Origin: a bacterium
Lineage (GTDB): Bacteria > Pseudomonadota > Gammaproteobacteria > Nevskiales > OUC007
Length of the DNA stretch: 45,979 nt
Assembly: GCA_018222345.1 (NCBI GenBank)
Contig: JAAFAL010000007.1
Span: forward strand, 1-45,979
Direction: 5' to 3'
In this document: one piece after another, positions 9,360 to 24,132 of the stretch
How positions within the stretch are numbered: position 1 is the first letter of the stretch
Layout: each line of letters opens with the position of its first letter
Notes under the pieces: model-generated
What the model was told of the DNA's origin: nothing
Database searches by the model: none
The model's input: only the letters and a program-made list of their open reading frames with translations
Translations under genes and position numbers: made by a program

Positions 9360-9394
9360 TGTCATTGCGAGCGGCATGGCCGCCCGCAATGACA
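9360..9394. repeat. Palindromic repeat, short form (copy 3)
   Basis: This 35-bp element keeps only the outer arms of the family, TGTCATTGCGAGCGGC and GCCGCCCGCAATGACA, and has lost the inner CAATCTCGT/ACGAGATTG pair. It fills the 79-nt gap between parA and parB and would form a hairpin in their shared mRNA. Confidence 0.85.
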
Positions 9395-17348: not shown

Positions 17349-18041
17349 TCAGTCAATCAGATTGGCCTGCGTCTGTTCGGTGTAAGCCTGCAGCCCGAAA
17401 TGCCCATAGGCAAAGGTATATGTGGCAGTTTCGCCAGCGATACGGCTGCTATGCACGCCGCCAACATTGCACGTGCCCGACGAGCACACCACTTGATCCT
17501 GATACGACTTGATGGAATACACCCGGTCGGCCAGCGGTTTACCGTACAGCCAATCCAGGAACGGGCTGGATACGCTCAGGCCCCAGTAGCCACAAGTGCT
17601 GTTTTGCACGTTGTACGGGTAGGCACCGCAGGACCACAAGCCGCGGTACGCACCGGCCACGCCAACAAAGGCATCCACGTCGTCGTCAACACCCAGGTCA
17701 ACAATCTGCTTGGCGGCCAGAGTGACGCCCATGGAATGGCCGATGACGTCGATCTTGCCGCTGCATGAGCCGGCAATGGCGTCCTGGATGGCATTGCGCA
17801 CCGGGGTTTCTTCCCACCCACTGTGGTTGTTGCAGGCCGGACAACTCTTGTAGCCCCAATTGGGCAGGTACAGGTCGCTGCTGGAATAACCGCGCGAGTA
17901 CAGCTCGCTGACGGTGTTGTCCCAGTCGGACGTATAGCCGGCATTGCCGTGCACCAGCACCACCGGATCCTTGCAGGCCCAGGCCCAAGCGGGCGCAGCC
18001 AGCAGGGCCAATGCGGCCAGAATGTGTTTGCTTGTTTTCAT
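17349..18041 (-). CDS. Secreted lipase, class 2 / PhaZ7-like alpha/beta hydrolase
   Basis: This 230-residue exported esterase has a signal peptide (MKTSKHILAALALLAAPAWA), the oxyanion segment DPVVLVHGNAGYTSDWD and the nucleophile elbow IGHSMG (Ser103). The segment VGVAGAYRGLWSCGAYPYNV recalls the extracellular PHB depolymerase PhaZ7 and class 2 lipases, and a late histidine is in YGHFGL. Several cysteines (CPAC, SCG, CSSGTC) suggest disulfides outside the cytoplasm. The ATG at 18041 follows GAGGAGA. It lies downstream of the symporter gene and is a distant relative of the lipase at 20.2-21.7 kb. The substrate (triglyceride or polyester) is inferred only. Confidence 0.85.
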   Translation of the reverse strand: MKTSKHILAALALLAAPAWAWACKDPVVLVHGNAGYTSDWDNTVSELYSRGYSSSDLYLPNWGYKSCPACNNHSGWEETPVRNAIQDAIAGSCSGKIDVIGHSMGVTLAAKQIVDLGVDDDVDAFVGVAGAYRGLWSCGAYPYNVQNSTCGYWGLSVSSPFLDWLYGKPLADRVYSIKSYQDQVVCSSGTCNVGGVHSSRIAGETATYTFAYGHFGLQAYTEQTQANLID

Positions 18042-18125
18042 CGTTGTCTCCTCGATGTTGTTGTCATCCATGATTGACGCGACAGGCTCTGATGGCCCTT
18101 GGGCGTCAGTGCAATCAGAAAAGGG

Positions 18126-19592
18126 TCAGGCGTTCATCACCGCCTTGATGTCGTCGGGCAAGTTGCGTGGTGACGTGGCAAAGCTCACGCCGATAAACAC
18201 GATGAAGCTGGCCACGAAGCTCACTGCGGCGCGATACACGTGCCCCGGCAGCAGCTCGGGCAGCCAGCCCATGGCGTTGTTCAGTTCCAGCAGCAATTGC
18301 AGACTGACGCCCACGATCAGGCTGGCGATTGCGCCGGCCGTGGTGGCGCGCGCCCAGTTCAGCCCCAGGCCCAGTGCAGGCGCCAAAGCCGCGGCAAACG
18401 TACCCCAGCCAAAGATGCCGAGAATGGCAATCAGCTGGCCCGAGAACACCGCCACCAAACCGCTGGCCACGGCCAGCAAGACGGTAAAGATGCGCCCCCA
18501 TTTGAACTGGAAGTCGGCGCTGGTCTCGCGGCCAAAAGCCATCGGCAGGTCGCGCACAAAGGCCGCGGCGCCAATGTTCAGGAAACTGTCGGCGGTGCTC
18601 ATCGACGCCGCCGCCACACCGGCAAAGAACACCCCGGCCAACAGGCTGGGCGCGTACTGCAGCATGAACAGTGGCGCCGCATCGTCCGGGCTGGCCAGGC
18701 TGATGTCGCCAATATCGGCCAGATAGCGCATCACCGTGCCCACGCTCAACCACACCAGGCTGGTGACCATGGCGGCGGCAGCGGCAACCACGGCGCCCCA
18801 TTTCATGCGCCGCGGCTCGCGGATCATGTAGAACTTGTGGGCCACTTGCGGCTGGCCGAGGATGCCCAGCGAAAACACGAAGTACCAGCCAATCACCACG
18901 CCGGGCCCCAGCCCGCCCCAGGGCGACACCCAGTCCGGATTATTCGCTGCGATGACCTGCGTCATGTTCGGCAGGCCGCCGCCCACATCAATGGCCAGGT
19001 ACGCAGTGATCAACGCCGCCAACAACATGATGCCGCCCTGCACCACGTCGGTATAAATGCCGGCAATCATGCCGCCGGCCGTGGCATAGACCGCCACGAT
19101 GGCCACGCCCAGCGCCACACCCATCCACAGCTCGATGCCGAAGATCTGCCCCAGGATCACGCCCATGGCCAGGGTTTGCGTGGCGAGGTAACCAACCACG
19201 CCGAGCAAGATGGCGATAGCCGACAAGCCGCGCGCGAGGTTCGAGTCATAGCGCGCATGGATGGCGTCCGGCACGGTCATCATCGGCCGCACCGCAGCCA
19301 GCAGGCGCATGCGCTTGGCCAGCATGTACCAGGCCAGCGCAAAGGACACCGCGGCCGGGAAGGTGAGCATCAGCGTGCCCATGCCAAAACTGTAGTGAAT
19401 GCCCGGCCCGCCAATAAACAGGAAGCCGCTCATGGCCGACGACATCGTCGCCAGCGCAATGGCCCACATTCCGACGCCTTTGCCGGCGACAAAGTAGTCC
19501 TCGGAGGTTTTGGTCTTGCGTGCCGCCCATAGGCCGATGGCGATCATGCCGGCAAAGTAGATCGCTGCAATGGTGACGATGGTGGCGTTCAT
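18126..19592 (-). CDS. Sodium:solute symporter (SSS family)
   Basis: This 488-residue inner-membrane carrier has about 13 hydrophobic segments. The opening IAAIYFAGMIAIGLWAARKTKTSEDYFVAGKGVGMWAIALATMSSAMSGFLFIGGPG is the SSS signature, with the ATMSSAMSG region near the sodium site. VYATAGGMIAGIYTDVVQGGIML and FFAGVAAASMSTADSFLNIGAAAFVRDL are the two other family signatures. It resembles organic-acid and pantothenate members, but substrate cannot be read. The gene lies behind lipase, ligase and membrane-protein genes, so a carboxylic acid released by the hydrolases is the best guess. Confidence 0.92.
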   Translation of the reverse strand: MNATIVTIAAIYFAGMIAIGLWAARKTKTSEDYFVAGKGVGMWAIALATMSSAMSGFLFIGGPGIHYSFGMGTLMLTFPAAVSFALAWYMLAKRMRLLAAVRPMMTVPDAIHARYDSNLARGLSAIAILLGVVGYLATQTLAMGVILGQIFGIELWMGVALGVAIVAVYATAGGMIAGIYTDVVQGGIMLLAALITAYLAIDVGGGLPNMTQVIAANNPDWVSPWGGLGPGVVIGWYFVFSLGILGQPQVAHKFYMIREPRRMKWGAVVAAAAAMVTSLVWLSVGTVMRYLADIGDISLASPDDAAPLFMLQYAPSLLAGVFFAGVAAASMSTADSFLNIGAAAFVRDLPMAFGRETSADFQFKWGRIFTVLLAVASGLVAVFSGQLIAILGIFGWGTFAAALAPALGLGLNWARATTAGAIASLIVGVSLQLLLELNNAMGWLPELLPGHVYRAAVSFVASFIVFIGVSFATSPRNLPDDIKAVMNA

Positions 19593-19617
19593 GCGCGCAC
19601 CGACGGACAGACTTGAC

Positions 19618-19704
19618 TGTCATTGCGAGCAACGCGAAGCAATCTCGTCACCTTGGCGGAACATGACGAGATTGCCGCGGGCGCTGCGCGCCCTCGCAAT
19701 GACA
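19618..19704. repeat. Palindromic repeat, copy 4
   Basis: This 87-bp copy has perfect ends TGTCATTGCGAG and CTCGCAATGACA and inner arms GCAATCTCGTCA and TGACGAGATTGC. It lies inside the catabolic operon, between the 144-residue membrane protein and the symporter, where it may lower downstream expression or stabilise the upstream mRNA. Confidence 0.9.
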
Positions 19705-19725
19705 TACTTGTGTTGTTTCGTGGGC

Positions 19726-20160
19726 TCATTGCTTCTGATCCCGAAACTGCTCGATTGCTTCCCAATCGGCATCCGACAACACATGGCGATCAAACAAGAA
19801 CGCGTAAGGCAGCGTCACCAACAGGAACGGCGCCGGCCACAGCAGGTAAACCGCCGCTGCCGTGGCCTCGGTGAAACCAAACATCAGGCGTGTGGCGTCA
19901 TTGCTGGCAGCGTGCATGAGCGCAAACGCCAGCAACCAGACCACCAGCGCTGCAATCAGCCAAGGTTTGAACGGGCCCAGCCGGCCCTGCCGGCGCGCAC
20001 CCAAGGCCAGGCACAGCGTCAGCACCAGGCTCATACCCCAGGCAAACAACATGGTCATGCCCGCCAGCATGGTGATGCCCGTCATCAAGAAGGCAACGCC
20101 CAGTAGGCCCACCAGTTGGTCGGTGCCGCGGTCGGCAGTTTGTTGAGTGCGGGTGGTCAC
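19726..20160 (-). CDS. Small integral membrane protein, function unknown
   Basis: I do not recognise a family for this protein. It is 144 residues with four hydrophobic segments (about residues 15-36, 38-55, 66-87 and 100-120), a basic loop ALGARRQGRLGPFKPW and an acidic C-terminus (DADWEAIEQFRDQKQ). It starts with GTG inside the stop codon of the lipase gene (GTGA) and is followed by the symporter gene. Small membrane partners encoded before SSS carriers are known for some members, so an accessory role in transport is plausible but unproven. Confidence 0.7.
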   Translation of the reverse strand: MTTRTQQTADRGTDQLVGLLGVAFLMTGITMLAGMTMLFAWGMSLVLTLCLALGARRQGRLGPFKPWLIAALVVWLLAFALMHAASNDATRLMFGFTEATAAAVYLLWPAPFLLVTLPYAFLFDRHVLSDADWEAIEQFRDQKQ

Positions 20161-21686
20161 CGGCCTTTCTTCCGCAGGCCTTCGTAGATCACCGGCGCCT
20201 CCGGGTCGAGTTGGCGCAGCAAGGTATTGCGCGCTTCGAGCAATTCAAGACTAATGTCGAACTCGCGCGTGACTGCTGGCGAGGTCTTGCCGTTGGGCGA
20301 GATGGCCATGGCGGTCAGCGTGACCGGGCCGGCGATGTAGATGGGGTCGGTGTAAAGCGGGCTGCCGCTTTCGATCGGCGTGCCGCTGGTGTTGTAAACA
20401 ATGTAGGCGTCGGGGTCGTCCGACTCCAGCGTCACCCGCTGCGGGTGCTCGAACACGCCGCCAACGGGGGTGAAGCGCAGCGTGGGTGCCGGGCGCTCCG
20501 GCGCATCATCTTTTGCACGCTTGAAGCGCTCGATACGGCCAGGCAGCTTGGTTTGCGCGTTGTAGGCATAGCAGGTGTACAACACGTCAGGAGCCATCTC
20601 CACTGTCGGGACGGCGGCTACGTCTGGCCCCGGCAGGCTGCCGTCATTGGTGCAACGCAGCGTGGCGGCATCCGAATCGGGTTTGATGACCTTGTTCATC
20701 CGGATGATGCCCGGGCGCTCGGCCGTGAAGTCGGGTTTCGGCCCCTTTGCCAGCCAGTCGATCATGGCATCCATGGTTTCCGGTTCGCGCGGCAGTTCCA
20801 GGTGGCCGTAGTTGGTGCCGTGCACACGGTTGTAGGGCAGGTTGTAAGCGCCTTCCAGCGCACCGCTGTCCTCGTTGGGTTTGGGGAACAGCACATCGCC
20901 CCAGCCGGTGCCGTCGTACAGCGTCATGTAACGGGTCGGGCCGGGTGTTTCGTCGCCGCGGTTGAGTTGCTGGAGCCATTCGCTGTTGGGGTAGAGCTCC
21001 CAACTCACACCGCGCTGTTGGCCGCGGGTGTCGTTCCAGGCCGTCCACACGCCGTCGCTGGCGCCAGCGGTGCCGATGAAGCTGCGCACGCGGTGGTAGC
21101 TGTTGGTTTGCTTCATCCACTGCCGTGTCAGGGTCACGCCCAGGCTGTGGCCGATGATATCGACCTGATGCACGGTCTTGCCGGTCTTATCGGTGAGATA
21201 ATTCGTCACGCTGTTGACGATGCGCTCCAGGCTAGGCACCGACAGGTCGTTGGAATCGAAGTAGCGAACGTTGTTCCAGCCATACGACAAGGCCCACAAC
21301 TCGTCGCCGCTGTAGCCCTGTTGCATGAAGTATTGGCGCGGCCCGTTCCAGTAGGCGGCCGACACCGTGTTGCCGTGTACGAAGATCACGGGGACGCGAT
21401 TGACCCCGCCGCCACCGCCACCCCAGCCAGGCATCGGTTGGTCGGTTTCGTGCGAGATCGGTGGCTGAAAATCGGCGGGGAAGTCGTGCTGGCGTGGCGC
21501 TTCCAGGCCAATCGCCGGGAACAGAATCTCGCGTGGGGCGCAGGCGGCGAGCAACAACACTGTCATCGCGAGTGCCAAAGGCGCGCGGCGATCTCGTGAC
21601 GCGGGTGCCGACGTGTCGAGATTGCCGCGGGCGCTGCGCGCCCTCGCAATGACAGGGGAACTTGGGAGTCTTGCATTCATCATCAT
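20157..21686 (-). CDS. Lipoprotein lipase/depolymerase with chitobiase-like C-terminal domain
   Basis: This 509-residue envelope hydrolase has a long N-region, then the hydrophobic stretch APLALAMTVLLLA and lipobox LAAC (Cys49). The alpha/beta-hydrolase domain (about 95-330) has VIFVHGNTVSAAYWN, the nucleophile elbow IIGHSLGV (Ser181) and a candidate catalytic histidine in NYGHLELP. Residues from about 400 to 485 (FTPVGGVFEHPQRVTLESDD, then IYIAGPVTLTAMAISPNGKTS) form a CHB_HEX_C-like beta domain, often found in extracellular enzymes. The hydrolase part resembles class 2 lipases and PhaZ7. The ATG at 21686 overlaps the preceding stop as ATGA. Residues 11-42 are encoded by a palindromic repeat copy. 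Confidence 0.88.
   Translation of the reverse strand: MMMNARLPSSPVIARARSARGNLDTSAPASRDRRAPLALAMTVLLLAACAPREILFPAIGLEAPRQHDFPADFQPPISHETDQPMPGWGGGGGGVNRVPVIFVHGNTVSAAYWNGPRQYFMQQGYSGDELWALSYGWNNVRYFDSNDLSVPSLERIVNSVTNYLTDKTGKTVHQVDIIGHSLGVTLTRQWMKQTNSYHRVRSFIGTAGASDGVWTAWNDTRGQQRGVSWELYPNSEWLQQLNRGDETPGPTRYMTLYDGTGWGDVLFPKPNEDSGALEGAYNLPYNRVHGTNYGHLELPREPETMDAMIDWLAKGPKPDFTAERPGIIRMNKVIKPDSDAATLRCTNDGSLPGPDVAAVPTVEMAPDVLYTCYAYNAQTKLPGRIERFKRAKDDAPERPAPTLRFTPVGGVFEHPQRVTLESDDPDAYIVYNTSGTPIESGSPLYTDPIYIAGPVTLTAMAISPNGKTSPAVTREFDISLELLEARNTLLRQLDPEAPVIYEGLRKKGR
21561..21654. repeat. Palindromic repeat, copy 5, inside a lipoprotein gene
   Basis: This 94-bp copy has ends TGTCATCGCGAG (one change from the consensus) and CTCGCAATGACA and inner arms GCGATCTCGTGA and TCGAGATTGCCGC. 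Unlike the other copies it is within a coding region: it supplies codons 11-42 of the lipase lipoprotein, including the basic residues before the hydrophobic core and the first part of that core. Confidence 0.88.
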
Positions 21687-22894
21687 GGCGCCCAGAACAA
21701 GTGAACAAGCCGAAGCTCCAGATACGGCGACGCTGAAACAGCGCCGGCCTCCTGCACGGCAAACAACTCAGCATCCACCGTCGAGACACTATTGTCCGGC
21801 CCGCATGGCTGGCTCAGGCAGACGTCATACGTGGCGGTGAACTGCCCGCCCCGACCACCAACTGGCTGCGCCACGCGCATCTGCAACACGCTGGACGTGC
21901 GATAGACGTAGTAGATACCCATGGTGAGCAAGCGGCCACGAATGCCGTTGTCGCTATAGGGGCCTGGGCGCGGGTTTAGAAAGAATTGATCCGACGCCGG
22001 GTTGTCGCACAACTCCTGGCTGATCACTTCCAGGCCCAGGTTGTTATTGGTGTTGTCGCAGGCACTTTGCGGCGACAGCGGTTGGTCCTTGAAGTTGACG
22101 GTGAGTTGGTCGTAGTGGTTCGACCCCACCGACTCGCGGTAGCTGTAGCCGATATCGACGAACCAGTGCTCGGAGAACTTCCAGGCAAAGTTCATCTCCA
22201 GGTTGCGGTAATTGGCAATACGCGTCGGCGTCAGGCCGCCAAAGCTGGGCTCGTCGTTGTTGTCGTTGAACTGGTAGGCAAAGGTGCCGTCGATGTAAAG
22301 GCGGCCCCACAACTCGGCGTGCCATGCGAACTGCGGGATGTAGGTCCAGTAATTGGTGCCGATGTTCAGCGCGGCGTCGGTGTCGTAGTCGCCAATCGGG
22401 AACTTGACGGTGGTGGCAAACAGGCCATTGAACTTCAGCGGCCCCCAGCGATGCTCCTTGCCGTAAATGCCGCACAGGCCGAAGAAATCACCAATGCCGT
22501 TGGCGCCAGGCCGGTGCCCGAACAAACGAACCCGGGCGGCAATGTTGCCGGTGTTCTGCTGATAACCGAGCACGCCGATGCCGCGACAAAATTGGTTGCG
22601 GTCCTTGAGGATCGGCACGTTGGTGTCGCGGAACACATTGCCGACCCACAGGTACTTGAACAGGCCTAGCGCCGCATCCGTGCTGTCACCCGCGGGCACG
22701 AACGGCCGGCCGAGTTCGATCTCCTCGCCATCGCGGTCGTAGATTTCCTCAATCTCGGTGGTGATAAACGTCAGCTCGGCATAGGGGCCGGCCGGCAGGA
22801 TGGAGTATTCCGACAAATGCGGCGTAAACACGATGGCTGCATGCGCGGCTGAACAGGCGAGCATCAGCGTGCATATAAGGATTAATCGTCTCAT
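21683..22894 (-). CDS. Outer-membrane beta-barrel protein, phenol-MetA-pathway-like (second of pair)
   Basis: This exported protein of about 403 residues starts MRRLILICTLMLACSAAHA (signal peptide) and has many alternating aromatic strands ending in VHLFWAP. It resembles putative outer-membrane transporters of the phenol-degradation MetA group. FGGLTPTRIANYRNLEMNFAWKFSEHWFVDIGYSYRES shares the FGGLTPT motif and layout with the preceding gene product, so the two are paralogues. ATG at 22894 overlaps the previous stop as ATGA; the lipase start overlaps its own stop. A role in taking up hydrophobic products is inferred. Confidence 0.72.
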   Translation of the reverse strand: MRRLILICTLMLACSAAHAAIVFTPHLSEYSILPAGPYAELTFITTEIEEIYDRDGEEIELGRPFVPAGDSTDAALGLFKYLWVGNVFRDTNVPILKDRNQFCRGIGVLGYQQNTGNIAARVRLFGHRPGANGIGDFFGLCGIYGKEHRWGPLKFNGLFATTVKFPIGDYDTDAALNIGTNYWTYIPQFAWHAELWGRLYIDGTFAYQFNDNNDEPSFGGLTPTRIANYRNLEMNFAWKFSEHWFVDIGYSYRESVGSNHYDQLTVNFKDQPLSPQSACDNTNNNLGLEVISQELCDNPASDQFFLNPRPGPYSDNGIRGRLLTMGIYYVYRTSSVLQMRVAQPVGGRGGQFTATYDVCLSQPCGPDNSVSTVDAELFAVQEAGAVSASPYLELRLVHLFWAP

Positions 22895-24132
22895 CGCCGT
22901 TCGCACCCCACGCAGGTAAAGGTGTCGCCTTCGCCAAACTGGAAGCGGGCTGACACGGTGAACCGGTCGGTGGCAAATACCCGCGCCGGGCCGTAGGCAT
23001 CGACGAACACGGTCTCACCGTCGCTGGTCATGCAGCCTGTTGCGCCCACGGTGCAGCCCGGCGGCGTGCGGTTGGTATAGGGCAGATCGAACTGGCCGCT
23101 GCGGCCGGCGGTCGGGTGTGTCCATTGCAGGCCCAATTGCCAGCGCTGGCCGGCGAACACGTCCAGCGCCAGGCCCATGGTCTGCAACTCGGTACCACCA
23201 TCGGAATAAATGCCGGTGGACGGGAAGTTGTCGCTGTTGGGCGGCGGCTCGGGTGGGTTGGGTGCAAACAACACCGGCGTGTACTGGTTGGAATCGCCAC
23301 TGCGGTCGTAGTAAAACGCCGTCAGAAAGAACCGGCCGCCCAATTGCTGAGCCAGGCTCACGTCGAACCAGGTGTCGTCGCCCTGCTGTGTGGGCGTCAG
23401 GCCGCCGAAGGCTGGGTCTTGATTCTTGAGATAGGCGCGGCGGCCAATGCCGACATCGACAAAACTGCCCTTCCACGGCTGTGCATGCACACCCAGCACG
23501 GCGTGGAATGCCGGCGTGTTGGTGCCGGCACTGGTGGGTGCATCGCGGTCATAGCTGCCAAAGTTGAGGCGCAGCCCAGCCTTGAACAACACCGCCAGTG
23601 GGCTGCCCTGGCGGGTGCGCCAATTGTCGGCGCCATACAAGAAGCTGCCGCCCTCGACCGTCACATCGCCAATGCCGCTGCCTTCGTTGCGCAAGTCGTC
23701 AGCGTTGGTGCTCGCATCATCGCTATCGTCGGCGATAAACGCTGCCAAGGGGCCTTCAGTACGCGTGTCGGCATAGCGCAGTTGCACACGCAGCAGATGC
23801 GTGGTGCTGGAGATGAACGGTATGTCGTAGTCCTCGAACAAGGGCAGATGCCAGGTCAGACCTGCAACCACATCCGTGCGCGGGAACTTGGTCTGGCCCG
23901 GCAAGGTGGGCACCGCGCTGTCGCGCTCATTACCCGCGGCGTCGAAGCTGCTGTCGCGGGTGTCTCGCTGCACCGCCAAGTCGCCATACTGGCCGGGATA
24001 CAGCGGCATGTAGCGCGCGAAGCGCGGCGATGGCTCGGGCACGTCCTGCGCTGCGGCCAGTTGCGCCACCAGCAGCGACACAACGGCAAGCACTAGCGCG
24101 GCGGCGTCAAGCGGCCGATTTCGAGTCAACAT
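22891..24132 (-). CDS. Outer-membrane beta-barrel protein, phenol-MetA-pathway-like (first of pair)
   Basis: This exported protein of about 413 residues has the signal peptide LTRNRPLDAAALVLAVVSLLVAQLAAAQ. The mature part has strand-like repeats (VAGLTWHLPLFEDYDIPF, FLTAFYYDRSGDSNQY, FTVSARFQFGEGDTF) and the shared motif FGGLTPTQQGDD. A C-terminal CVGC pair and C-x6-C in CTVGATGC may form disulfides. ATG at 24132 has GGA 8 nt upstream; 24141 is the alternative. Both overlap the end of the ligase gene by 26-35 nt. Same operon and likely same job as the following paralogue. Confidence 0.7.
   Translation of the reverse strand: MLTRNRPLDAAALVLAVVSLLVAQLAAAQDVPEPSPRFARYMPLYPGQYGDLAVQRDTRDSSFDAAGNERDSAVPTLPGQTKFPRTDVVAGLTWHLPLFEDYDIPFISSTTHLLRVQLRYADTRTEGPLAAFIADDSDDASTNADDLRNEGSGIGDVTVEGGSFLYGADNWRTRQGSPLAVLFKAGLRLNFGSYDRDAPTSAGTNTPAFHAVLGVHAQPWKGSFVDVGIGRRAYLKNQDPAFGGLTPTQQGDDTWFDVSLAQQLGGRFFLTAFYYDRSGDSNQYTPVLFAPNPPEPPPNSDNFPSTGIYSDGGTELQTMGLALDVFAGQRWQLGLQWTHPTAGRSGQFDLPYTNRTPPGCTVGATGCMTSDGETVFVDAYGPARVFATDRFTVSARFQFGEGDTFTCVGCERR

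Follow-up and report, generated by a model that had tools for sequence, protein, structure and literature searches.

The lipase gene in this stretch of DNA raises the question of how a copy of a dispersed palindromic repeat came to lie in frame within a lipoprotein signal peptide, and whether the protein can still be exported with the repeat in place. The window (the whole 45,979-nt stretch that was analyzed) corresponds to contig C56 of G000, a draft genome of 3.0 Mb made up of 220 contigs, and the features on which the argument turns are the following:

20157..21686, minus strand: coding sequence of a class-2 lipase lipoprotein of 509 aa with Lipase_2 and CHB_HEX_C_1 (chitobiase C-terminal) domains
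21684..21686, minus strand: ATG start of the lipase, overlapping the TGA stop of the upstream gene as ATGA
21683..22906, minus strand: upstream gene (Phenol_MetA_deg), overlapping the lipase by 4 nt, with its stop 29 nt from the repeat
21656..21686, minus strand: MMMNARLPSS, the native beginning of the signal peptide, which precedes the repeat
21561..21654, no strand assigned: palindromic repeat copy, codons 11-42 of the lipase; 96 nt when taken as 21560-21655, CTGTCA...TGACAG
21540..21559, minus strand: native remainder of the hydrophobic core and lipobox, LLLAAC, with VLLLAAC common to orthologue G001

The domains of the lipase are recognized by Pfam (PF01674, E = 4.1e-16; PF13290, E = 1.4e-12), and the junction between the end of the upstream protein and the start of the lipase reads FWAP*/ATGATGATGA. 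The initial annotation described the repeat as codons 11-42 of this gene, and the coordinates, frame, and residues proved exact: bases 21654-21561 encode P11 to T42, with RDRR as residues 31-34 and APLALAMT as residues 35-42, followed by the native VLLLAAC as residues 43-49, the GTG codon of V43 straddling the junction between repeat and lipase. The N-terminus in G000 reads MMMNARLPSS-PVIARARSARGNLDTSAPASRDRRAPLALAMT-VLLLAACAPRE, in which the middle block, PVIARARSARGNLDTSAPASRDRRAPLALAMT, is repeat-encoded. Its description as a copy of a dispersed repeat also held, since a profile built from 28 other copies, with the lipase copy left out, finds 21561-21654 over the full length of 94 nt (E = 2.7e-16), but the size had to be revised, as the symmetric unit spans 96 nt rather than 94. 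This length is of consequence, because the element together with its flanking C and G amounts to exactly 32 stop-free codons and the lipase frame is thereby kept, whereas an insert of 94 nt would shift it. The lipase copy is 79% identical to the copy at 19618, and full-length identity to single other copies is only 63-79%, as might be expected if an Arg- and Ala-rich signal in G+C-rich DNA merely resembled the repeat by chance; that explanation is ruled out by the leave-out profile, and a stretch of 44 nt is 95% identical to the copy at 19661, leaving it practically no probability. The lipase copy folds at -59.0 kcal/mol (z -5.67 versus shuffles), and an Rfam search of window positions 18000-24000 found nothing. 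In the arm that encodes part of the h-region (21561-21607), two bases depart from the family: a T to C change where 107 of 108 other arms have T, which is silent, and an A to G change where 98 of 102 have A, which replaces Cys with Arg. These two positions pair with each other in the stem of the arm (T:A to C:G), and as a compensatory pair they are no evidence of selection on the protein; the Cys-to-Arg change was rejected as a sign of such selection.

The repeat is abundant in this genome, with the core TGTCATTGCGAG found at up to one mismatch at 132 + 126 sites, or about 258 half-sites, compared with 3 + 2 for the reversed control. Copies read CTGTCATTGCGAG...GCAATCTCG...CGAGATTGC...CTCGCAATGACAG, forming two hairpin arms in opposite orientation, and most are 80-99 nt long. 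This two-arm pattern has 102 matches in G000 (56 + 46, with some copies matched on both strands) and none in the other 99 genomes that were searched. At window positions 9360-9394, the two ends of the repeat (TGTCATTGCGAG...CCGCAATGACA) form a solo hairpin of 35 nt, apparently an internally deleted copy. We examined 88 copies, about two thirds of the number implied by the half-sites: 70 from the first 100 listed half-sites in contig order, 11 of which were fragments shorter than 70 nt, and 18 more in 12 of 30 loci. With gene calls made by a simple codon score, for which the window served as training data, rather than by a published gene finder, 71 of the 88 copies were intergenic and 17 touched a called ORF, namely one at a 3' end, 14 at 5' ends with the start codon at or downstream of the copy, the lipase copy, and one in a second exported protein, L027. 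At three loci of G000 (L078, L080, and L105), the terminal ATGACA of the repeat may be the start codon of the next gene. Around 58 full-length copies, the lipase copy excluded, 69 flanks were gene 3' ends (median distance 19 nt, 44 within 30 nt) and 40 were gene 5' ends (median 23 nt, 22 within 30 nt); nearness to starts is also common, and the bias toward stop codons lies mainly in the flank numbers.

Such a distribution is familiar from the GTAG/CGTC REPs, described in the available text of Di Nocera 2013 (PMC3733652) as short palindromes found mostly just downstream of coding regions, some of them in frame inside genes. Compared with CGTC-1 to -4 as that text presents them, the G000 element is alike in its tag and in the AT at the beginning of its stem and differs in its short stem with an internal loop and in its tail, and thus belongs to none of these four families (PMC3733652). 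The terminal tag is TGTC, which fits the CGTC type (in the two-arm matches by construction of the pattern), and the first two stem positions are A-T pairs (ATTGC...GCAAT). Instead of a stem of 8-9 bp with a loop of 4-5 nt, there is a 5-bp ATTGC/GCAAT stem, an internal loop, an inner stem of 2-5 bp, and a 3-nt loop, and CTC stands in place of the CCA tail. The RAYT transposase family that mobilizes REPs, Y1_Tnp (PF01797), had no matches in G000 versus matches in 5 of 14 control genomes, a weak absence in a draft of 220 contigs.

What the signal looked like before the repeat can be judged from orthologues. A search of all 85 available genomes of the order at E <= 1e-60 found 14, including that of G000 and one from a Nevskiaceae MAG, and 369 genomes sampled evenly across the class yielded no further orthologue at the same threshold. 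Eleven of the 14 have ordinary lipoprotein signals, such as MKLEQRLVVAAAVLLLAAC in the nearest repeat-free orthologue, G001 (65% identity), and MSRSRFVALLLLPLLAAC in G004, and none of the orthologues compared has the N-terminus of the G000 lipase without the repeat. Joining the flanks of the repeat gives MMMNARLPSSLLLLAAC, which is short for a lipoprotein signal but plausible as one. The repeat-free orthologues and the joined flanks together support an earlier proposal that the repeat was inserted into an existing signal, and they suggest that the direction of change was from repeat-free to repeat-bearing. A further claim, that the ATGA overlap fixes the lipase start, gained support: in 12 of the 14 orthologues, the lipase has an in-frame start that shares an ATGA, GTGA, or TTGA with the stop codon of the upstream gene. 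The two exceptions are exactly the two other repeat-bearing orthologues, with the ATG of the G069 lipase located 4 nt after the beginning of the upstream stop; in G007, the stop codon of the upstream gene is in frame with the lipase, whose start is shifted downstream.

A lipoprotein signal for the Sec pathway and signal peptidase II consists of a charged n-region, a hydrophobic core, and a lipobox ending in Cys. Judged by hydropathy, charge, and lipobox, the repeat-bearing signal has all three, with an n-region of +5, a core of 14 residues (APLALAMTVLLLAA, mean KD 2.27), and the lipobox LAAC. For the joined flanks, the corresponding values are an n-region of +1 and the 10-residue core LPSSLLLLAA with a mean KD of 1.94, while the core means of the other orthologues range from 1.35 to 3.07, and the n-region is net positive in all 13 of them. 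The n-region with the repeat is 34 residues long, compared with 2-22 in repeat-free orthologues. The suggestion that the repeat has become the signal peptide therefore needs to be narrowed: the n-region is mostly repeat-encoded and so is half of the core, but the native VLLLAAC end with the lipobox was kept. Likewise, to call the repeat recruited implies selection, which the paired stem changes do not support. Tat signals carry the motif S/T-R-R-x-F-L-K, and a Tat signal was rejected, as RDRRAPLAL has the twin Arg but neither F-L-K nor a preceding S/T.

A repeat of a different kind occupies the same place in two relatives. The lipase of G069 (L034) begins MKHIILLFAVIRQRFSWVPAFAGTTFIVAMTVAC and that of G007 (L039) begins MKKSHWVPACAGTTMLILSIVAC, or has a longer form from an earlier ATG, and in both the WVPAxAGTT part is a unit of another dispersed palindrome, in frame at the site of the G000 insert. 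In the 10 of the 14 orthologue genomes covered by site counts, TGGNTNCCNGCNTNCGCNGGNANGAC at up to one mismatch has 133 sites in G007, 125 in G069, 45 in G000, 34 in G004, 8 in G071, 1 in G038, and 0 in G001, G024, G013, and G056 (controls 0); for the other four, a separate similarity search gave 35 match rows in G049, 4 in G060, 3 in G068, and 1 in G054. The idea that inserts are confined to the three repeat-rich genomes was softened, as G004 and G049 have moderate repeat numbers yet clean lipase signals. The dispersed units of G007 and G069 have the CGTC tag, an 8-bp stem beginning with AT, a 4-nt loop, and a CCA tail, based on site patterns and, for stem and loop, the fold of one typed unit, and they match CGTC-1 in tag, stem, loop, and tail as given in the available text of PMC3733652. 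In the G069 lipase unit, GT replaces AT and is paired through a compensating change, and an exact search of the G069 genome with this unit matches no other site, while allowing 2 mismatches adds one. Among 20 stretches of G007, 20 of 28 other copies of the CGTC-type repeat are intergenic. One in-frame copy in G007 sits close to the C-terminus of an ORF of 477 aa, with 54 nt remaining to the end of that ORF (L117 447-1880; G007:C113).

The lipase tree needs at least two changes to account for the presence of repeats, and an AU test rejects a single clade of the three repeat-bearing lipases (p 0.0004), which excludes one ancestral insertion for all three. One signal peptide was probably hit at least twice independently, by different repeats in separate relatives, although this recurrence was noticed after the fact and no P value is given for it. 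In the best tree, the G069 and G007 lipases group as sisters with support of only 54/87. Because a rare variant, GTCCC...GGGAC, is shared by their units, and each unit stops 25 nt short of the Cys codon, a single event is the favored explanation for these two inserts.

A second case in G000 involves L027 (G000:C166:791-1684, plus strand), a protein with matches in 77 of the 85 genomes of the order and no family at the cut-off in a Pfam search. Here, the reading frame runs from a repeat copy at 848-941 straight into SLLWFAACVLAIVIAPAALAETTTK, placing a repeat-derived n-region immediately before SLLWFAACVLAIVIAPAALA. The orthologues in G001 and G002 have ordinary starts (MGRLLPVLAAALLAAVTG and MRLVACLLVLCALSPALA, respectively), and nine more (L129-L137) each have an ATG and a basic residue before the core. 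Since starts behind the repeat are limited to TTG codons with no basic residue, and since an AAGGGGG stretch precedes TTG 854 within the repeat, the n-region of the predicted L027 signal is repeat-made, and its start codon is probably repeat-made as well.

Several other explanations for the lipase insert need to be weighed, one being that the repeat is never translated and forms a 5' leader, with the lipase starting at ATG (Met41) or TTG (Leu37). According to the available text of PMC3733652, REPs at N-termini are often mis-annotated starts, and the 14 other G000 copies at ORF 5' ends, all with starts at or downstream of the copy, fit this pattern. However, these starts would give MTVLLLAAC and MALAMTVLLLAAC, with only 8 or 12 residues before Cys and no basic residue, in contrast to the net positive n-regions of the other 13 orthologues. 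Inspection of the lipase 5' region found no start inside or after the repeat that leaves a charged n-region and no ribosome-binding site before Met41 or Leu37; the ATGA start farther upstream is conserved. Initiation within the repeat was rejected on these uncharged n-regions, the initial annotation's own refuting case of a start within or after the repeat finds nothing usable, and we consider it quite improbable that the repeat is untranslated. The insertion might instead have damaged the signal, with the lipase mis-targeted or not made and the open frame reflecting a recent accident. The insert is seen in one genome lacking a same-genus relative and may be recent, harmful, or silent; its n-region is unusually long, and a stable hairpin so early in the gene may slow ribosomes. 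Against such damage, the frame is open over 509 codons with the family domains intact, the charged n-region, 14-residue core, and LAAC lipobox remain, and two genomes with lipase DNA 75% alike both have the CGTC-type insert in frame and keep WVPAxAGTT. We therefore regard it as unlikely.

It is also conceivable that the element is kept for its RNA, with the hairpin behind the upstream stop protecting the mRNA or damping coupled translation of the lipase and the encoded residues merely tolerated. Copies are found chiefly a short distance after stop codons, the lipase copy folds far more stably than its shuffles do, and such RNA roles have been proposed for REPs in the available text of PMC3733652. 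However, the hairpin lies inside the frame and is probably translated by coupling, which should melt it, and an RNA role would be compatible with the insertion reading rather than exclusive of it. As the explanation in its own right, it has a fairly small chance of being correct.

The reading we prefer, with a probability of roughly 0.8, is that a lineage-specific REP-like element was inserted into the existing signal of the lipase lipoprotein and is translated, with the predicted export signal kept. The palindromic element would have landed a short distance past the upstream gene's stop codon, and because the two genes overlap by 4 nt, this spot falls inside the lipase signal peptide. The 32 stop-free codons of the unit explain why the start stays at the ATGA and the native lipobox remains in frame. 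Translation is expected to begin at ATG 21686, and the precursor would consist of MMMNARLPSS, 32 repeat-encoded residues, and VLLLAAC, the arginine-rich part of the repeat lengthening the n-region and APLALAMT joining VLLLAA to form the 14-residue core. With a charged n-region and a core of this length, Sec export and cleavage by signal peptidase II before Cys49 should still work, and the repeat-encoded residues would be discarded with the cleaved signal. Insertion at a spacer-free gene junction would be tolerated because signal n-regions are permissive, and the combination of stop-proximal insertion and n-region tolerance could explain why the same locus was hit in other lineages while copies are otherwise hardly ever in genes. 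More broadly, n-regions could be a general safe harbor, in which, in repeat-rich genomes, repeats at spacer-free junctions repeatedly rebuild downstream export signals and leave orthologous lipoproteins with unrelated, repeat-made signals; the repeat-bearing lipase signals in 3 of 14 orthologues and L027 in G000 point this way, and we put this extension forward as a tentative possibility.

In-frame insertion of a palindrome is of an already known kind, and the fresh part is the repeated hits on one signal peptide. Work by Ogata from 2000 and 2002 is said to have described Rickettsia palindromic elements in coding genes. In the available text of a review (PMC10969869), these are selfish palindromes that have entered coding genes in frame; compared by description, they are often found in genes, whereas the G000 repeat is mainly intergenic and its two clear coding cases are signal peptides. 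A literature search joining repeat and signal-peptide terms gave one direct precedent for a repeat in an exported protein, YPO1552 of Yersinia pestis with the RU-2/YPAL repeat (Delihas 2007, PMC2759123). As far as the available text describes it, the repeat there forms the very N-terminus, whereas the copy in the lipase is internal to a lipoprotein signal, with a conserved start ahead of it and the native lipobox after it; a further difference is that orthologues of the lipase received another repeat independently. The available text of PMC3733652 mentions two Xanthomonas whose recB genes carry REPs at roughly matching positions, and its main text contains no occurrence of "signal peptide". 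Within the literature searched (one library), no account was found of a single signal peptide receiving insertions more than once, and a search with the letters of the repeat gave only unrelated papers among the matches listed.

The lipase offers a before-and-after case of mobile DNA turning into protein, in which the orthologues represent the old signal and the joined flanks the presumed pre-insertion signal, and the other lineages provide a rerun of the experiment with a different element. It suggests a simple rule for coding palindromes, involving insertion near stop codons, spacer-free junctions, and permissive n-regions, and it carries a warning for annotation, as repeat-encoded N-termini are not always start-site errors.
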